41,695 nucleotides of DNA from a virus. A model generated the notes under the pieces. It did not search any database. It was not told where the DNA came from and saw only the letters and a program-made list of their open reading frames with translations. This document shows, in pieces, positions 4,498-41,695 of this stretch; the stretch's first letter is position 1, and the number at the start of each line of letters is the position of its first letter. The translations under genes and the position numbers were made by a program. The DNA is taken from positions 1 through 41,695 of IMG/VR virus record IMGVR_UViG_3300010364_000001, one strand, 5' to 3'.

Positions 4498-4532
4498 AAA
4501 AAAATGCAGACTTTTTAGATCTGCATTTTTAA
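4498..4532. terminator. Terminator-like hairpin 1 upstream of terS
   Basis: AAAATGCAGA (4501-4510) pairs with TCTGCATTTT (4520-4529), with A- and T-runs on both sides so it could work in either direction. A nearly identical hairpin follows at 4586-4613. Both lie between the divergent genes terS and 4793, where a terminator is not expected; they could instead be part of a packaging site. Confidence 0.65.
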
Positions 4533-4686
4533 AAGGGAATAATCTTGGTCGGACTTCTGTTATGAAATATTATAAATGAAAGTAAAAAATGCAGACTTTT
4601 AGGTCTGCATTTTGAAAAAAGGATTCTTTTTGCGGAGCCGAACCGAGAAATTAAATTTAGAAGCGCTAATTTAATAAGAATAATCG
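4533..4686. other. Non-coding segment upstream of terS, possible packaging region
   Basis: No convincing gene is seen here. The segment holds the second hairpin and two GC-rich islands in very AT-rich DNA: GGTCGGAC at 4547-4554 and GCGGAGCCGAACCGAG at 4632-4647. Cos and pac sites often lie just before terS, so this is the best place in the genome to look for one. Nothing in the sequence proves it. Confidence 0.3.
4586..4613. terminator. Terminator-like hairpin 2 upstream of terS
   Basis: AAAATGCAGAC (4586-4596) pairs exactly with GTCTGCATTTT (4603-4613). It shares stem sequence with the hairpin at 4501-4529, so one is a copy of the other. Confidence 0.65.
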
Positions 4687-4781
4687 GTTTTTAAATGTTA
4701 AAGTTTTTAAAAAGATTAGTTTTGATATTGTATATACGAAATCATGTTGTATATTTGCATCAGCAATAAAGCAAAACAAAT
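4687..4781 (+). repeat. 95-bp direct repeat carrying a promoter, copy 1
   Basis: Identical over 95 bases to 5394-5488. It contains a complete Bacteroidota promoter: TTG at 4728-4730, a 19-base spacer and TATATTTG at 4750-4757. The repeat ends 11 bases before the ATG of the 174-aa gene at 4793. Perfect identity suggests a recent duplication or active gene conversion. Confidence 0.95.
4728..4757 (+). promoter_or_regulatory. Strong Bacteroidota promoter (copy 1)
   Basis: TTG, 19-base spacer, TATATTTG: a near-consensus match to the TTG/TAnnTTTG promoter of Bacteroidota. Transcription would start near 4763 and give a leader of about 30 bases for the gene at 4793. Confidence 0.8.
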
Positions 4782-4792
4782 ACTTATAAATT

Positions 4793-5317
4793 ATGACAAC
4801 ACTTATTTTTAGAACAAAAAAAGATTTAAAATCAAGATTTGGAAATTCAATGATTACAGAATTTGCAAAAGAAGGTAGCATATCAGATGCGTTAAGTTAT
4901 TTTGACGGAAGTCATGATTTTGGTAGTTTTTTTCATAATGACGAAAAAGGTTATTATTACGTAACGGATGATAACGGAAGAGAATTAATTACAGATGACG
5001 AAATTGAGAATAACGAAGAAGTTAATTGTTCGGTAGATATTTATTCTTTTTGGACTACAAAAATTGATAATTTGAATAGTGAAGAACTTTTGTCGGTTTT
5101 AAAAGATGGTAGTTATCTGGCTCAAGAAGTTTTAGAAGCGAATGAATACAGCTATGATGATTATCAAGTTGCGAAATATTTCGATGATGTTGATGAGTTT
5201 ATAGGAGAGCATCCTTATGAAAACTATATAAAAGATTACTATGAAGTTTCGGAAAAAGAGTTTGATAATGGGTGTGAAGAATTTGAACTTAATGGTAAAT
5301 TTTATCAAAAATCATAA
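4793..5317 (+). CDS. Highly acidic hypothetical protein
   Basis: A 174-residue protein with no recognised domain. It is strikingly acidic: I count 41 Asp/Glu against 15 Lys/Arg. It is rich in Tyr and Phe and has no membrane segment. It is the first gene of the plus-strand early region and has its own strong promoter, duplicated in front of the next gene. Small, very acidic, early-expressed phage proteins are often DNA mimics or inhibitors of host defence, but there is no ArdA-like motif here and that role is only a guess. Confidence 0.8.
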   Translation: MTTLIFRTKKDLKSRFGNSMITEFAKEGSISDALSYFDGSHDFGSFFHNDEKGYYYVTDDNGRELITDDEIENNEEVNCSVDIYSFWTTKIDNLNSEELLSVLKDGSYLAQEVLEANEYSYDDYQVAKYFDDVDEFIGEHPYENYIKDYYEVSEKEFDNGCEEFELNGKFYQKS

Positions 5318-5393
5318 CAAAAAACTATAAAACAAAGCTGATGACTAAAACCAATAATCTTCGTAAGAAAATTCAATATTATGAAGATAATTT

Positions 5394-5488
5394 GTTTTTA
5401 AATGTTAAAGTTTTTAAAAAGATTAGTTTTGATATTGTATATACGAAATCATGTTGTATATTTGCATCAGCAATAAAGCAAAACAAAT
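5394..5488 (+). repeat. 95-bp direct repeat carrying a promoter, copy 2
   Basis: Exact copy of 4687-4781, ending 15 bases before the ATG at 5504. It directly follows the short reading frame that opens at 5341 (MTKTNNLRKKIQYYEDN), which looks like the beginning of a real gene cut short where the repeat begins. Confidence 0.95.
5435..5464 (+). promoter_or_regulatory. Strong Bacteroidota promoter (copy 2)
   Basis: Same TTG, 19-base spacer and TATATTTG as at 4728-4757, inside the duplicated block. It would drive the gene at 5504 and the small genes behind it. Confidence 0.8.
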
Positions 5489-7656: not shown

Positions 7657-8112
7657 ATGGGAAATTCAGCAAGGATGTTTTTACAAATGCGCGCAAATGA
7701 AATGGCTGATCTTTATCCGTCATCATTTTCAAAAAAGGACGCCAAAGAAACAGGTAGAAAATTAGTCGAAGATTTATTGGAATCTGGAGAGGTGGATAAA
7801 ATGCGCTTCGGAGCCAATCTTATAAGGCTCAATGAAGTTATAAGCTCGGCAGTAGAGGCTTTCAGGGAATCAATAATAGATATAGATAAGCAAAGCTGCA
7901 TGGGAATGGAATTTGTGCCTACAAATGGAAGATTAATGATTCAATATCAAGAAGATCATTTGTGGTCAGAACTAAATGAAAAAATAAAAGATAGAACAGA
8001 ACTTTTAAAATTGGCTGAAAAATCCAAGGATGCAATTTATGATTCTGAAGGAATAGAAGTGCCTAAATGTTCAGTAAATTATTCAAAATCAAGTGTTATT
8101 ATCAAGTTTTAA
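7657..8112 (+). CDS. Hypothetical early protein
   Basis: A 151-residue mostly helical protein starting MGNSARMFLQMRANEMADLYP. It is of mixed charge with a short C-terminal strand (SSVIIKF). It lies six bases after the membrane peptide gene. I know of similar unnamed proteins in Flavobacteriaceae phages but no function. Its stop codon lies four bases before the -7 element that precedes the first pseudoknot RNA. Confidence 0.75.
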   Translation: MGNSARMFLQMRANEMADLYPSSFSKKDAKETGRKLVEDLLESGEVDKMRFGANLIRLNEVISSAVEAFRESIIDIDKQSCMGMEFVPTNGRLMIQYQEDHLWSELNEKIKDRTELLKLAEKSKDAIYDSEGIEVPKCSVNYSKSSVIIKF

Positions 8113-8115
8113 TTG

Positions 8116-8123
8116 TAAATTTG
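8116..8123 (+). promoter_or_regulatory. -7 element in front of pseudoknot RNA 1
   Basis: TAAATTTG matches TAnnTTTG. Initiation five to eight bases later would begin the transcript at about 8130, exactly where stem A of the RNA starts. The -33 TTG is not obvious. Confidence 0.55.
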
Positions 8124-8129
8124 CAATTG

Positions 8130-8215
8130 TAGAGTCGTCGCTACAATGTAAAATTTTATATGAATTCCCGCAAATGATAAGAACGACGACTCTTTGATTT
8201 TGCGGGTTTTTTTAT
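8130..8215 (+). ncRNA. Pseudoknot-type RNA element 1 ending in a terminator
   Basis: Stem A AGAGTCGTCG (8131-8140) pairs over 10 bp with CGACGACTCT (8184-8193). Stem B CCCGCAAA (8167-8174) pairs over 8 bp with TTTGCGGG (8199-8206), which is followed by a T-run. The order A-B-A'-B' gives either an H-type pseudoknot or a switch between two hairpins, the second an intrinsic terminator. Loops are 26, 9 and 5 bases. It lies between a -7 element and a GIY-YIG gene whose ATG (8218) is just past the terminator. The same layout recurs at 13208 and 13648. No known RNA family is recognised. Confidence 0.7.
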
Positions 8216-8217
8216 TT

Positions 8218-8661
8218 ATGATAGGTATTTATAAAATAATAAGTCCAACAAATAGAATTTATATTGGACAAAGTGTTAACATTAAAGAAAGATTTGGAAA
8301 TTATAAAAGATTAGATTGTAAATACCAACCTAAATTAAGACATTCTTTTTTAAAATATGGAGTTGAAAATCATTTATTTGAAGTAATGTGTGAATGTGAT
8401 GTTTCAGAATTAAATGAAAAAGAAAGATTTTATCAAGATTTATATTCAGTTTTAGAATCTGGACTTAATTGTATATTAACAAAAACCAATGATAGAAGTG
8501 GTTATTCTTGTGAAGAGACAAAACAAAAAATTGGAAGAGCTCATTTAGGTAAAAAACATAGTGAAGAAAGCATTGCTAAAATGAAAAAAGTTCAATCAAA
8601 TAGATCTCAAGAATGGCTTGAAAATAATAAAAAAGGAAATAAAAACAACAAATTTAAATAA
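8218..8661 (+). CDS. GIY-YIG endonuclease with NUMOD3-like tail
   Basis: A 147-residue homing-type nuclease. I chose the ATG at 8218 because the domain begins there (MIGIYKI) and the longer reading frame would run through the terminator hairpin. The GIY-YIG domain has GIY at 3-5, YIGQS at 16-20, the active-site Arg in IKERF, and Glu in NEKERFYQDLY. The tail has the NUMOD3 signature (SCEETKQKIGRAHLGKKHSEESIAKMKK), a DNA-recognition module of homing endonucleases. It is clearly related to the 110-aa gene at 33406-33738. It breaks the early operon directly after RNA element 1, so it may be inserted there. Confidence 0.87.
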   Translation: MIGIYKIISPTNRIYIGQSVNIKERFGNYKRLDCKYQPKLRHSFLKYGVENHLFEVMCECDVSELNEKERFYQDLYSVLESGLNCILTKTNDRSGYSCEETKQKIGRAHLGKKHSEESIAKMKKVQSNRSQEWLENNKKGNKNNKFK

Positions 8662-10354: not shown

Positions 10355-11587
10355 TTAATTGAAAAATGGATGTTCCATTAATTTATCGGCATTTTCCTGT
10401 TGACTGATCTTAATGTATTTCATAAATGATCTTTCCGTCTTATGTCCTGTCATTTTCATTATCGAAATAACCGGAACGTCGGCAAGATATAAATTTGTCG
10501 CAAAACTTCTTCGTGCTGTATGTGAAGAAATGAGTTCATATTTAAAATGCGTTGTTTTTTCTATCAGATTATGCTTTTTAATAGTTATCTCGATTAAATC
10601 TTTTATACCGGCTAATTTCGCTATTTTTCTCAAACGCTCGTTCATTGTTTGATTGCTGGATGATTTTGGCAATTTTGAATCGTATTTAACTATTATTTCC
10701 TTTACTATCCGATGCAGTGGAATTATTACTTTGGCACCAGTCTTTAATGTTCGTTTTATCACTGTTGAATTTTCAAGATTTATATTCTCTGGGTTGATAT
10801 GTGTGAAATCTGAAAATCTGAGCCCCGTGTAACATCCAATTAGAAATAAATCGCGCGTTTTATCCAATTTCGGATTTTTCGAAAGATCCAAATCTTTGAT
10901 TTTTTCAACCTCCTTTATATTAAGGTAGATGCTGTCTGAATCTTCAGAAACCGTTTTGAATTTCTTTTTACGAAATTCCAAATTTTCATTGAGTCCCCTT
11001 TCAGTCGCTTCATTCAAAAAGGATTTTATTGTTTTGATATGTTTTCCAATAGTGTTAATGGATAATGATTTTTCATTGGATAAAAATGCCAAATAATCAT
11101 TATAAAATGCTAAATCAATATTTTTAAAATCAATATACTTATGCTTTAAATTATACTGTTTCAGATATTTTAAAACAATTTCATAATCCTTTAAAGTAGA
11201 TTCTCTCCTGTTGTTTTCGCACTCCTTTATATACACTTCACAAAATTCTATAAATGTCTGTTTTTTAGTATTTATAGGAATACCATTTAACAAAGAATCT
11301 AAATGTTTTTTAAGGATTTGATTGTTTATTTCCATACCATCATTATGTAATTTTCTGAATATATTATTTATCGCGTGCTGAATATTATCCAGTTTGGTAT
11401 TGAATTCCTGATGCTCTGAAAACTGTTTGGATTCTTTTGCGCGATGTTCTTTTTGGTTCCAGAATTTAGGATCTATTTTTTCTTTCGTTGAATATTTAAA
11501 CCTATGATAATCGTAATTATAGGTAAGATAAACTAGAGTATCTTTTTTTGATTTCGGTTCCTTTAATATGAATTTTGCTCTTGACAT
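10355..11587 (-). CDS. int: Tyrosine recombinase (phage integrase)
   Basis: A 410-residue integrase that would join phage attP to a chromosomal attB and, with a helper, excise it. The N-terminal arm-binding domain (SRAKFILKEPKSKKDTLVYL, with KFWNQKEHRA) is the form typical of Bacteroidota phages and conjugative elements. A SAM-like core-binding domain covers about 110-205. The catalytic domain has Arg257 (GLR), Lys282 (TLKTG), His356-x-x-Arg359, His382 (GHK) and the nucleophile Tyr391, so it looks intact. No tRNA or obvious core repeat is adjacent, and attP is not located. Confidence 0.95.
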   Translation of the reverse strand: MSRAKFILKEPKSKKDTLVYLTYNYDYHRFKYSTKEKIDPKFWNQKEHRAKESKQFSEHQEFNTKLDNIQHAINNIFRKLHNDGMEINNQILKKHLDSLLNGIPINTKKQTFIEFCEVYIKECENNRRESTLKDYEIVLKYLKQYNLKHKYIDFKNIDLAFYNDYLAFLSNEKSLSINTIGKHIKTIKSFLNEATERGLNENLEFRKKKFKTVSEDSDSIYLNIKEVEKIKDLDLSKNPKLDKTRDLFLIGCYTGLRFSDFTHINPENINLENSTVIKRTLKTGAKVIIPLHRIVKEIIVKYDSKLPKSSSNQTMNERLRKIAKLAGIKDLIEITIKKHNLIEKTTHFKYELISSHTARRSFATNLYLADVPVISIMKMTGHKTERSFMKYIKISQQENADKLMEHPFFN

Positions 11588-13194: not shown

Positions 13195-13202
13195 TATATT
13201 TG
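13195..13202 (+). promoter_or_regulatory. -7 element of pseudoknot RNA 2
   Basis: TATATTTG, an exact match to TAnnTTTG, followed by the start of RNA element 2 within about 12 bases. Confidence 0.6.
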
Positions 13203-13207
13203 CACCG

Positions 13208-13310
13208 CAACGAAGTGAGATTCGTTTTTGAAATAAACATATCAGAAAAATATAATATAATCCCATTCGGGGCGGTGTATCTCACTTTAGCCAAACCGAT
13301 TGGGATTTGT
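13208..13310 (+). ncRNA. Pseudoknot-type RNA element 2
   Basis: Stem A AAGTGAGAT (13213-13221) pairs with ATCTCACTT (13279-13287). Stem B AATCCCATTCGG (13259-13270) pairs with CCGATTGGGATT (13296-13307) with a single T-T mismatch. The order is again A-B-A'-B', with loops of about 37, 8 and 8 bases. No T-run follows stem B closely, so unlike element 1 it is not an obvious terminator. A -7 element lies just upstream and the 82-aa gene starts 30 bases downstream. It shares stem A and flanking words with element 3. Confidence 0.7.
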
Positions 13311-13339
13311 CTTATATAATAGTTTTTTAAACAATCAAC

Positions 13340-13647: not shown

Positions 13648-13750
13648 TTTAAAGCAGTGAGATACTTTAAGATAATTAAAAAACATCATATATCCCTATT
13701 ATTTATGGCTTATCTCACTTTCGAGCCTTAAACAATAGGGATATATTATA
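13648..13750 (+). ncRNA. Pseudoknot-type RNA element 3
   Basis: Stem A AGTGAGATA (13656-13664) pairs with TATCTCACT (13711-13719). Stem B ATATATCCCTATT (13688-13700) pairs perfectly over 13 bp with AATAGGGATATAT (13734-13746). Loops are 23, 10 and 14 bases in the order A-B-A'-B'. Relative to element 2, the A-T pair next to the CCC/GGG core of stem B has become T-A, a compensatory change. The ATCTCACTTT word and the AGCC after it are shared with element 2. It lies upstream of the initiator genes, 74 bases before the ATG at 13824. Confidence 0.7.
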
Positions 13751-13823: not shown

Positions 13824-14102
13824 ATGAAAGACGAACAGCATATTATTATTCAAGGCTGGATGATAAATAAATTAAAATTAAGAGGCAACCAATTATTAAT
13901 CTATGCTATTATTTATGGATTTGTCCAAGATTTAAATACTGAATTTATCTGTGAAGCAGATTATTTTTATAAAACTTTAAATATTAGTGAATCTACATCA
14001 TTAAAATCAATAAGATCTTTAATTCGTAAGAAATATATATCAGAAAATAATGATAAAACAAACAATAACCATTTAAGAACTTATAAAATATATAAATTAT
14101 GA
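13824..14102 (+). CDS. Winged-helix protein, likely replication accessory
   Basis: A 92-residue winged-helix protein. The start IIIQGWMINKLKLRGNQLLIYAIIYGF matches the N-terminal domain of many phage replisome-organiser and DnaD-like proteins, and LNISESTSLKSIRSLIRKKYI forms the recognition helix and wing. Only that domain is present. It overlaps the initiator gene by four bases (ATGA), so the two are translated together. It may assist or regulate initiation at the iterons in the next gene. Confidence 0.78.
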   Translation: MKDEQHIIIQGWMINKLKLRGNQLLIYAIIYGFVQDLNTEFICEADYFYKTLNISESTSLKSIRSLIRKKYISENNDKTNNNHLRTYKIYKL

Positions 14103-14902
14103 GTTCAAAAATTAAAATGGCTTTTGATACCAAAATAGCTAAAATAGTTGGTACCGATGCTGCAATAATACTTTCTAACATAGAATTTTGGGTATTTAAA
14201 AACCAAGCTAACGAACATCATTTTTATGATGATGATTATTGGACTTACAATAGCATAAAAGCATTTGAAAAGATGTTTGATTATTTAAGTAGTGGCCAAA
14301 TAAGAACCTGTCTTGACAAGTTAGAAAAACAAGGTTTTCTTAAATCTGGTAATTATAATGAAACGAAATATGATAGGACAAAATGGTATTCTTTAGGATC
14401 TTCTTTTTATGAAATTACATCTGAAAATAACCATTTGTTGAAATCAACAAATGCATTTGTTGAAATTGACAAATGCATTTATTCAAATCAACAAATGGAT
14501 TTGTTGAAACCTGTAAATGGATTTGTTGAAATCAACAAACCTATACCAGATAATAAACCAGATAATAAACCAAATAATAAACCTTTTAAAGAAAATCAAG
14601 AAATTTTAAACGGTAATAGAAATGAAAATTTTGGAAATGAACTCTTGGAAAACGATAATTGGAAAGAATCTATTCTTATTCAAAATGAATTTTCTAAAAA
14701 AGGATGGGGATTTCAGCAATTAGAAATATTCATTCGGAATTTCAATGTAAAACTCAATTCCGAATTAGATATTAAAAATTCAAAAAAAGATTATGCTAGC
14801 CATTTCTCCAGATGGCTTTCAGGTGAAATAAAAAACCAAGAAAAAATTAAAATACAAAATTCAAATGGTACTCATCCGACTATGTCTCGTAGAATATCAT
14901 AA
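14099..14902 (+). CDS. Replication initiator, lambda O-like in layout
   Basis: A 267-residue protein with an N-terminal winged-helix DNA-binding domain (about 1-105; YWTYNSIKAFEKMFDYLSSGQIRTCLDKLEKQGFL carries the helices). A low-complexity linker covers about 110-175, and a C-terminal helical domain (NDNWKESILIQNEFSKKGW ... DYASHFSRWLSGEIKNQEK) is of the kind that contacts a helicase or loader. The linker DNA holds five 22-bp iterons and a 12-bp AT-rich repeat (PDNKPDNKPNNKP), so gene and origin appear to be one unit as in lambda O. The primase-helicase lies 0.4 kb downstream. Confidence 0.85.
   Translation: MSSKIKMAFDTKIAKIVGTDAAIILSNIEFWVFKNQANEHHFYDDDYWTYNSIKAFEKMFDYLSSGQIRTCLDKLEKQGFLKSGNYNETKYDRTKWYSLGSSFYEITSENNHLLKSTNAFVEIDKCIYSNQQMDLLKPVNGFVEINKPIPDNKPDNKPNNKPFKENQEILNGNRNENFGNELLENDNWKESILIQNEFSKKGWGFQQLEIFIRNFNVKLNSELDIKNSKKDYASHFSRWLSGEIKNQEKIKIQNSNGTHPTMSRRIS
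14432..14541 (+). repeat. Five tandem 22-bp iterons, probable replication origin
   Basis: Five head-to-tail units start at 14432, 14454, 14476, 14498 and 14520, each 22 bp. The first is a near-perfect palindrome with arms CATTTGTTGA and TCAACAAATG. Units 2 to 5 vary mostly in the right arm, and unit 5 ends imperfectly. Because 22 is not a multiple of three, the reading frame changes from unit to unit, so the repeat is conserved as DNA and not as protein. They are the likely binding sites of the initiator. Confidence 0.88.
14541..14583 (+). repeat. 12-bp AT-rich tandem repeat beside the iterons
   Basis: Three near-identical 12-bp units around ACCAGATAATAA, in frame as DNKP/NNKP. This AT-rich stretch directly after the iterons is a candidate duplex-unwinding element, by analogy with the lambda origin. 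Confidence 0.6.
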
Positions 14903-33405: not shown

Positions 33406-33738
33406 TTATTTTCTTTTATGATTAGAAATTCTTTTTATTAACTTCTGATAATTTTTGATTGGATTTTCTTTTGTGATTTTGCAATTCAATCCATTTTTTC
33501 CCGTGCAATTGAACAGTTGCTGAAAATATCTTTCAAAACCATCCAATTGCCACTCAAAACAAATCACAAGTATTTCAAATCTATGATTAGCAACCCCGAA
33601 TTTCCGCAATGATTGATATATTTTCGGTTGTTTCCTACAACGCAATTTCCGATATGCCTTAAAACGCCGCTCTATATCCACGGATTGACCGATATATGAA
33701 GCACCAGCAGGGTTCATTATGCGGTAAATCCCTATCAT
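33406..33738 (-). CDS. Small GIY-YIG endonuclease inside the tail operon
   Basis: A 110-residue GIY-YIG nuclease: MIGIYRI at the start, SYIGQSVDIERRF (14-26) with the active-site Arg, QPKIYQSLRKFGVANHRFEIL, and the catalytic Glu in GFERYFQQLF. It is a clear relative of the enzyme at 8218-8661 but lacks its NUMOD3 tail, keeping only a basic end (KLIKRISNHKRK). It sits with gaps of one and two bases between a tail gene and the tape measure, so it is translated with late genes. It may be a homing gene or have been adopted by the phage. Confidence 0.85.
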   Translation of the reverse strand: MIGIYRIMNPAGASYIGQSVDIERRFKAYRKLRCRKQPKIYQSLRKFGVANHRFEILVICFEWQLDGFERYFQQLFNCTGKNGLNCKITKENPIKNYQKLIKRISNHKRK

Positions 33739-41010: not shown

Positions 41011-41685
41011 ATGACTATAACAAATGAATGCAATATGGAACTCATGAAACGCTATTCTAACAATTACTTTGATTTAGCTATTGTGGATCCGCCTTATTTT
41101 TCAGGACCTGAAAAAAGAAAATATTATGGGAATTCGATCAATAAACTAAATATAAAACGAACAGATTACAATCCATTAAATGATTCATGGAAATTACCTA
41201 CGGAAGAATATTTTAATGAATTATTCAGAGTTTCCAAAAACCAAATAATTTGGGGTTGCAATTATTATGCAAAATACATTCCATCAGTAGGCAGGATTGT
41301 TTGGAATAAAGTAAACGGCGAAAGTAGTTTTTCTGATGCGGAAATAGCTTCCTGTAGTTTTCATGATTCAGTAAGGCTTTTTTCTTTTATGTGGAACGGA
41401 ATGATGCAAGGAAGTGGCTTTGATGGAAAAGTAAACGGGAATAAAAAATTAAATGAAAAAAGAATACATCCGACTCAAAAACCTGTAGCATTATATAAAT
41501 GGATTTTAGATAAATATGCTAAACAAGATGATAAAATATTGGATACTCATTTAGGGTCAGGTAGTATCGCCATAGCTTGTTACGATTATGGATTTGAACT
41601 TACAGCATGTGAGATTAATAAAGATTATTTTGATAAATCAATTGAGCGAATAAATAATCATATCAGTCAACAGAAATTGTTTTAA
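41011..41685 (+). CDS. DNA adenine N6-methyltransferase
   Basis: A 224-residue DNA methylase of the DPPY group, transferring a methyl group from S-adenosylmethionine to adenine N6. Catalytic DPPY is at 26-29. HPTQKPV (153-159) is motif X, and DTHLGSGS (178-185) is a variant of the FxGxG SAM-binding motif I, so the motif order IV...X-I is the beta type. No restriction nuclease is nearby, so it is an orphan enzyme, which in phages usually protects DNA from host restriction or controls packaging and gene expression. The short region between DPPY and motif X would hold the recognition part; the target cannot be read from it. Confidence 0.92.
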   Translation: MTITNECNMELMKRYSNNYFDLAIVDPPYFSGPEKRKYYGNSINKLNIKRTDYNPLNDSWKLPTEEYFNELFRVSKNQIIWGCNYYAKYIPSVGRIVWNKVNGESSFSDAEIASCSFHDSVRLFSFMWNGMMQGSGFDGKVNGNKKLNEKRIHPTQKPVALYKWILDKYAKQDDKILDTHLGSGSIAIACYDYGFELTACEINKDYFDKSIERINNHISQQKLF

Positions 41686-41695
41686 TTATTAAAAA
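41573..41695. repeat. Terminal direct repeat, right copy
   Basis: Identical to bases 1-123. Joining the two ends restores an uninterrupted methyltransferase gene followed by the partition cassette, which supports a circular map. Confidence 0.95.

Follow-up and report, generated by a model that had tools for sequence, protein, structure and literature searches.

Comparative sequence analysis identifies the element at positions 8116 to 8213 of the window as one copy of a large, conserved, and widespread class of phage RNAs. On balance, we think it probable that this is a cis-acting 5' leader RNA dedicated to the gene downstream: it would be started at its first hairpin, partly terminated at a terminator-like stem, and thereby limit expression of that gene. 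By the window we mean the whole 41,695-nucleotide (nt) stretch analyzed (virus record IMGVR_UViG_3300010364_000001 of IMG/VR, positions 1 to 41,695), whose two ends carry an identical 123-bp direct repeat (1 to 123 and 41573 to 41695), which marks the record as a phage genome that is terminally redundant or was assembled as a circle.

Anatomy of the element upstream of the GIY-YIG gene

The first-pass annotation of this DNA had described two interleaved stems at 8130 to 8215, in the order A-B-A'-B', followed by a T-run and by a GIY-YIG gene starting at 8218. All of these are present: stem A joins AGAGTCGTCG (8131 to 8140) to CGACGACTCT (8184 to 8193) over 10 bp, stem B joins CCCGCAAA (8167 to 8174) to TTTGCGGG (8199 to 8206) over 8 bp, seven T's occupy 8207 to 8213, and an ATG stands at 8218. 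A mechanical scan of the whole window ranked the stem A/B pair second by stem strength, and among the top-ranked interleaved pairs it is the only one with a long T-run 3' of it. A strict version of the architecture scan described below also finds the 8116-to-8213 element in the window, with none in shuffled sequence.

All parts of the element lie on the plus strand. Its 5' boundary is a box, TAAATTTG (8116 to 8123), that matches the Bacteroidota −7 promoter element TAnnTTTG and is placed 2 to 7 nt upstream of the first base of the 5' hairpin or of stem A. This hairpin, H1 (8126 to 8147; ATTGTAG[AGTCGTCG]CTACAAT), has arms at 8126 to 8132 and 8141 to 8147 and a loop, L1, at 8133 to 8140. A second hairpin, H2 (8179 to 8194; AAGA[ACGACGAC]TCTT; arms 8179 to 8182 and 8191 to 8194), is nested within the loop of stem B, and its apical loop holds the segment L2 (CGACGAC, 8184 to 8190), the exact complement of GTCGTCG in L1 (8134 to 8140). 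Because L1 and L2 are the loops of H1 and H2, stem A amounts to a loop-loop (kissing) pairing. Judging from the comparisons below, the part of it kept in evolution is this 7-nt pairing (8134 to 8140 with 8184 to 8190), which forms the core of the stem A first annotated, and the three outermost pairs of stem A are in competition with the stems that close H1 and H2.

Stem B is, by its sequence, terminator-like, and its loop contains a hairpin. The stem (8167 to 8206) and the seven T's after it have the sequence form of an intrinsic (Rho-independent) terminator, and the U-run at 8207 to 8213 is the predicted 3' end of the RNA. A generic terminator scan left the site at 8167 to 8213 unflagged because the loop of stem B is 24 nt long. 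The stem ends 11 nt before the ATG at 8218, which lies outside it. The minimum-energy fold of the element comprises H1 and B and is devoid of the kissing pairs, which programs of this kind cannot display; loop-loop duplexes, calculated at about −8.5 to −11.7 kcal/mol, are by these models strong enough to matter.

The gene behind the element (8218 to 8661, plus strand) encodes a homing-endonuclease-like GIY-YIG protein of 147 amino acids (aa) with a NUMOD3-like tail (Pfam GIY-YIG, 3.2e-05, above the family cutoff; PHROG homing endonuclease, 7.9e-20). Two more GIY-YIG genes of the window, both on the minus strand (1842 to 2765 and 33406 to 33738), are without a leader element and have little or no upstream gap; the one at 33406 is a paralogue of the 8218 gene with 45% identity.

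A class of RNAs spread across phages

A blastn search with 8090 to 8230 as the query located the element in 34 Flavobacterium phage records, where it falls in gaps without annotation. The two relatives examined have it directly ahead of an HNH/NUMOD4 endonuclease gene, not a GIY-YIG gene, and the Flavobacterium phage relatives have two stem B base pairs changed on both sides. A 14-nt segment of H1, used to scan IMG/VR, picked out 104 stretches, mostly real copies. From 5' to 3', the real copies consist of TAnnTTTG, H1 (whose loop, L1, has 8 nt), about 20 nt of A/T-rich spacer, stem B, and a U-run. Inside stem B of the real copies is H2, whose 8-nt loop L2 is complementary to L1 over 7 nt, and an ATG follows 10 to 12 nt past the start of the U-run in 77 of 102 copies.

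A looser scan for the architecture itself (promoter box, H1, 7-nt loop complement, B, and T-run), run over fetched phage DNA (5.75 Mb, both strands), recovered 138 elements as against 5 in Markov-shuffled sequence; as with the other family counts, the IMG/VR contigs behind this number are partial and related. These elements display 48 different L1 strings. A T-run of at least 4 adjoins the 3' arm of B in 134 of the 138, and 131 have an ORF that begins no more than 150 nt away. Dropping the promoter requirement gave 83 elements (3 in shuffled sequence), and TAnnTTTG ends 2 to 11 nt, mostly 3 to 6 nt, before H1 in 70 of the 83 and in none of the 3. Since these 70 come from a scan that did not ask for a promoter, the structure is tied to a promoter box independently, and the transcript likely starts at H1. 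The earlier proposal that the TAnnTTTG element places the transcript start at the first stem gains support from this fixed offset, the exact site being a prediction.

Further carriers are the F. columnare phages FCL-2 and FCV-1 and Cellulophaga phage phi19:1 (element at 10367). Phage hattifnatt9-1 (MN812207), which infects Flavobacterium sp. LMO9, has elements at 13312 and 14346. There was no convincing element in crAss001 (first 50 kb), FL-1 (first 50 kb), or 6H (46 of 47 kb), and none was found in plasmids. The shuffles rule out a chance origin of the elements. A host chromosomal origin was rejected as well: a strict scan of 84,980 species, made with the commonest loop and H2 flank only, gave just two matches, one in a planctomycete and one in a mycobacterium, both likely due to chance.

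Compensatory change in loops and stems

The kissing pairing was assessed most fairly by a scan of IMG/VR in which nothing but the H2 arms and the promoter box was fixed and any 8-nt loop was admitted. An exact 7-nt L1 complement of L2 lies upstream in 79 of 80 distinct matches (one element is counted twice owing to overlapping promoter matches), and seven different pairings occur (L2 being CGACGAC in 38, CTACGAC in 18, CGACCAC in 9, CGTCCAC in 7, CTACCAC in 4, CTTCCAC in 2, and CTAGTCC in 1). The sole exception, L277, is without the L1:L2 match and resembles coding sequence. An alignment of 53 copies, whose rows were partly picked by L1:L2 and H1 complementarity so that the loop-agnostic scan is the fair test of those pairings, has 99.1% of its cells paired, changes on both sides in 18 of 22 pairs, and a covariation score of 0.468, as against 0.02 to 0.05 for slid partners. 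In these 53 copies the four inner pairs of H1 covary; the arms of H2 covary as AAAG/CTTT, AGAG/CTCT, and AAGA/TCTT, and double changes affect six of the seven pairs of stem B across copies.

A second subtype provides the clearest example, a comparison at a single locus, where both loops have changed together between phages in elements that are otherwise about 86 to 93% identical: hattifnatt has GTGAGACG/CGTCTCAC, mumin and snusmum9 have GTGGAACG/CGTTCCAC, and morran has GTGAGAAG/CTTCTCAC. The element thus has what defines a kissing-loop RNA, i.e., complementary hairpin loops kept by compensatory change, and this covariation shows that the loops of H1 and H2 pair, either within one molecule or between two. 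The first-pass annotation had argued that the topology itself is what is kept, and this is strongly borne out: joint changes of L1 and L2 recur across many lineages, and H1, H2, and B show covariation of their own. Its suggestion that pairing of stem A would block or knot the terminator is doubtful: as L2 occupies the apex of the terminator-like hairpin, loop-loop pairing and B are in principle compatible.

Other elements and repeats of the window

The two other elements that the first-pass annotation alludes to, at 13209 to 13307 and 13650 to 13746, exist and follow the same plan, both on the plus strand. The first, E1 (13195 to 13307), has TATATTTG at 13195 to 13202, H1 at 13209 to 13226, loops AAGTGAGAT and ATCTCACTT at 13213 to 13221 and 13279 to 13287, and B at 13259 to 13265 and 13301 to 13307, with no direct U-run. 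The second, E2 (13650 to 13746), has H1 at 13650 to 13669, loops AGTGAGATA and TATCTCACT at 13656 to 13664 and 13711 to 13719, and B at 13688 to 13700 and 13734 to 13746, with neither TAnnTTTG nor a U-run. They have the loop GTGAGAT in common. As both are without a U-run and E2 is also without the promoter box, E1 and E2 may be divergent or decayed copies.

The window holds repeats of other kinds. A 114-bp repeat (4668 to 4781 and 5375 to 5488; 94%) containing TATATTTGCATCAGCAATAAAGCAAAACAAAT stands just 5' of two different ORFs, at 4793 and 5504, and is a duplicated promoter/leader cassette of another type. Two near-identical hairpins of the AAAAATGCAGAC...GTCTGCATTTTT type, about 85 nt apart at 4500 to 4620, look like a pair of bidirectional terminators. 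Repeats of CAACAAATG/CATTTGTTGA occur in both orientations at 14419 to 14550, inside the ORF at 14099.

Downstream genes and the cassette

Among 72 proteins encoded downstream of the closest subtype, 48 match HNH_3, 41 NUMOD4, 11 AP2, and 9 GIY-YIG. Other copies head genes for DEAD/ResIII helicases, primase-like, methylase-like, and KilA-N proteins, and small unknown proteins. The association with an endonuclease gene made in the first-pass annotation therefore stands for the closest subtype and fails as a general rule, and an endonuclease-specific element was rejected on the ground that other subtypes precede other genes. A single gene family can be found with many loops and a single loop with many gene families. 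This decoupling makes it unlikely that the gene product reads the loops.

Several individual contexts deserve record. A family of 78-aa proteins of unknown function (MNTISVQGFKIDINHFDTQIS...) often follows an element with the loop GTCGTCG or GTCGTAG (L023, L024, L042, L061, L069, L083, L104, L261, and others). L025 encodes, on the minus strand (offsets 1258 and 9473), two KilA-N paralogues with elements of their own, whose loops are GTAACGG and GTCGTCG. In four copies with the commonest loop (L032, L038, L049, and L091), no ORF stands directly behind the element; a TATAACG... sequence, which may mark the border of another repeat, comes there instead.

Comparisons of related phages indicate that the element and its gene move together. 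In filifjonk9-1, the genes that flank the element and an HNH gene in hattifnatt have neither of the two between them; hence, element and gene came or went together. At one locus shared by FCL-2 (L259, 37487) and FCV-1 (L339, 35875), sequence identity is about 93% as far as the promoter box, past which the two phages carry different elements with different genes. This is a cassette swap with its left edge at the promoter box. Such genome comparisons show that element and gene are inserted or swapped as one unit, traveling as a cassette.

How the leader may act, and alternatives

As a leader acting in cis, the element would work as follows. Transcription would start at the base of H1, as the promoter box predicts, and the RNA would fold into H1 and the terminator-like hairpin B with H2 as its apical part, the loops of H1 and H2 pairing with each other. 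Many transcripts would end at the U-run, releasing a free RNA of about 85 nt. In those that read through, the start codon would directly follow a stable stem, and gene expression would probably be low. The loop-loop contact would set how often B terminates or opens. The kissing contact alone implies no effect on B, and an effect of the leader on translation or on RNA stability would be just as plausible. Because an immediate U-run is absent from some copies (E1, E2, FCV-1 35875, and the GGGCATTAAC group), termination may not be the function shared by the class. By analogy, a leader that limits its gene fits the phage habit of holding homing endonucleases down, although the class also heads other genes: in T4, RNA hairpins and terminators at the 5' ends of homing endonuclease genes keep expression low (PMC2988022).

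A more tentative possibility is feedback in trans that is specific to each element: the terminated leader would build up as phage copies accumulate and pair with nascent leaders of its own kind, shifting their termination. Each element would then need a loop pair of its own, so as to avoid cross-regulating the others. Extended to Bacteroidota phages at large, this is a speculative picture of interchangeable gene cassettes, in which the kissing loops of the leader would serve as a private address, its own kind would be recognized in trans, and the gene would be throttled as copy number rises. The decoupling of loop and gene family fits, in that it speaks against the gene product as the reader of the loops, and there are precedents: kissing hairpins set the specificity of attenuators (PMC4878617), and the CI RNA of phage P4 terminates its own leader (PMC4825925). 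No pair of elements on the same contig shares a loop among the 43 pairs of scan elements (8.0 expected by label shuffling), a figure inflated by the mixing of subtypes. Within the closest subtype, none of 12 same-contig pairs does so, with P = 0.0036 when labels are drawn from the whole pool, but P = 0.06 under the stricter null in which they are drawn only from multi-element contigs. The permutations are thus only suggestive of loop privacy. Against feedback in trans, E1 and E2 of the window have the same loop, neutral drift under a pairing constraint would diversify loops as well, and intramolecular pairing should normally beat pairing in trans. The lack of enrichment of loop 7-mers in the rest of these contigs (counts below) also counts against private loops.

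It is unlikely that the element is an independent, stable small RNA, its ends locked by the kissing loops and resistant to nucleases, with targets elsewhere in the phage or host and the downstream gene a mere passenger. The element does have its own promoter box, a compact fold, and a terminator-like end before the ORF, and the L032, L038, L049, and L091 copies have no ORF directly behind them. Yet an ORF start within 150 nt is the rule (131 of 138), element and gene move together, and the free variation of the loops is not what a seed for a fixed target would show. Loop 7-mers are also unenriched elsewhere in the same contigs (28 against 37.9 expected for L1; 40 against 32.9 for L2), and trans targets elsewhere in the phage were rejected on this ground. 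Least probable is an insulating promoter-terminator cassette that blocks upstream transcription and holds the mobile gene off until its own promoter comes into use, with kissing merely aiding folding: cassette insertion between genes, the T-runs and terminator-like stems of most copies, and the 5'-end terminators of T4 mobE and segF (PMC2988022) are in keeping with it, but a promoter box 5' of the terminator-like stem means that the cassette's own transcript would be stopped too, and an exact L1:L2 match, superfluous for insulation, has been kept through many changes.

Relation to known RNAs

Neither the window nor five related loci gave a match to Rfam 15 at the gathering score, and the best subthreshold match for the element was the trpB motif (17.9 bits versus 59 needed); Rfam, at gathering and relaxed thresholds, thus rules out a known RNA family. 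A riboswitch was rejected because a conserved ligand-pocket sequence is wanting: across subtypes little is kept beyond the architecture (48 L1 strings), with short flanks conserved within the closest subtype. The open-access literature yielded nothing relevant on kissing loops, leader RNAs, or conserved RNA motifs of Bacteroidota phages. Within the scope of Rfam and that literature, the class is apparently undescribed.

Its nearest parallels each differ in construction. In ColE1 RNAI/RNAII and the kissing hairpins of other plasmid copy-control systems, loops pair over about 7 nt and their sequence can set specificity; here, both loops belong to a single strand of one leader, which is not located at a replication origin. 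Attenuators of the pT181 type (PMC4878617) likewise place a sensing hairpin at the 5' end and an intrinsic terminator between it and the gene, have their specificity set by loop-loop kissing, and leave scope for orthogonal variants. They differ in employing a separate antisense RNA and an antiterminator, whereas here both complementary loops are in one leader, there is no known antisense partner, and no antiterminator is evident by eye in the window element. P4 CI RNA immunity (PMC4825925 and references therein) also involves a phage leader in which mutually complementary segments promote premature termination, but there a single immunity region with a processed CI RNA and seqA/seqC targets represses replication genes in lysogeny, whereas the Bacteroidota element forms small cassettes, several in each phage group and each with one gene. 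The 5' hairpins and terminators of T4 homing endonuclease genes (I-TevI, segB, and mobE; PMC2988022) share with the element an RNA structure 5' of GIY-YIG/HNH genes, low expression (here an expectation), and a promoter adjoining the gene. Each T4 hairpin, however, is peculiar to its gene and either sequesters the Shine-Dalgarno sequence or is located within the coding region; here, a single conserved kissing architecture, equipped with a promoter box and with a terminator-like stem ahead of the ATG, precedes unrelated genes. The parts (leader, terminator, and kissing hairpins) are thus of known kinds; as far as could be tested, their combination, spread over unrelated phage genes, and interchangeable loops are new.

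Implications

The element apparently adds a structured RNA class with many compensatory changes to phages whose gene regulation is little known, and, being present in over 30 records of Flavobacterium phages whose hosts are in culture, it can be tested now. If the loops are private addresses, they would constitute a natural, evolvable library of orthogonal attenuators, like those that synthetic biology builds from pT181. HNH and GIY-YIG mobile endonuclease genes, which belong to unrelated families, share one RNA control module, and the cassettes suggest that accessory genes of phages get swapped together with their leaders.
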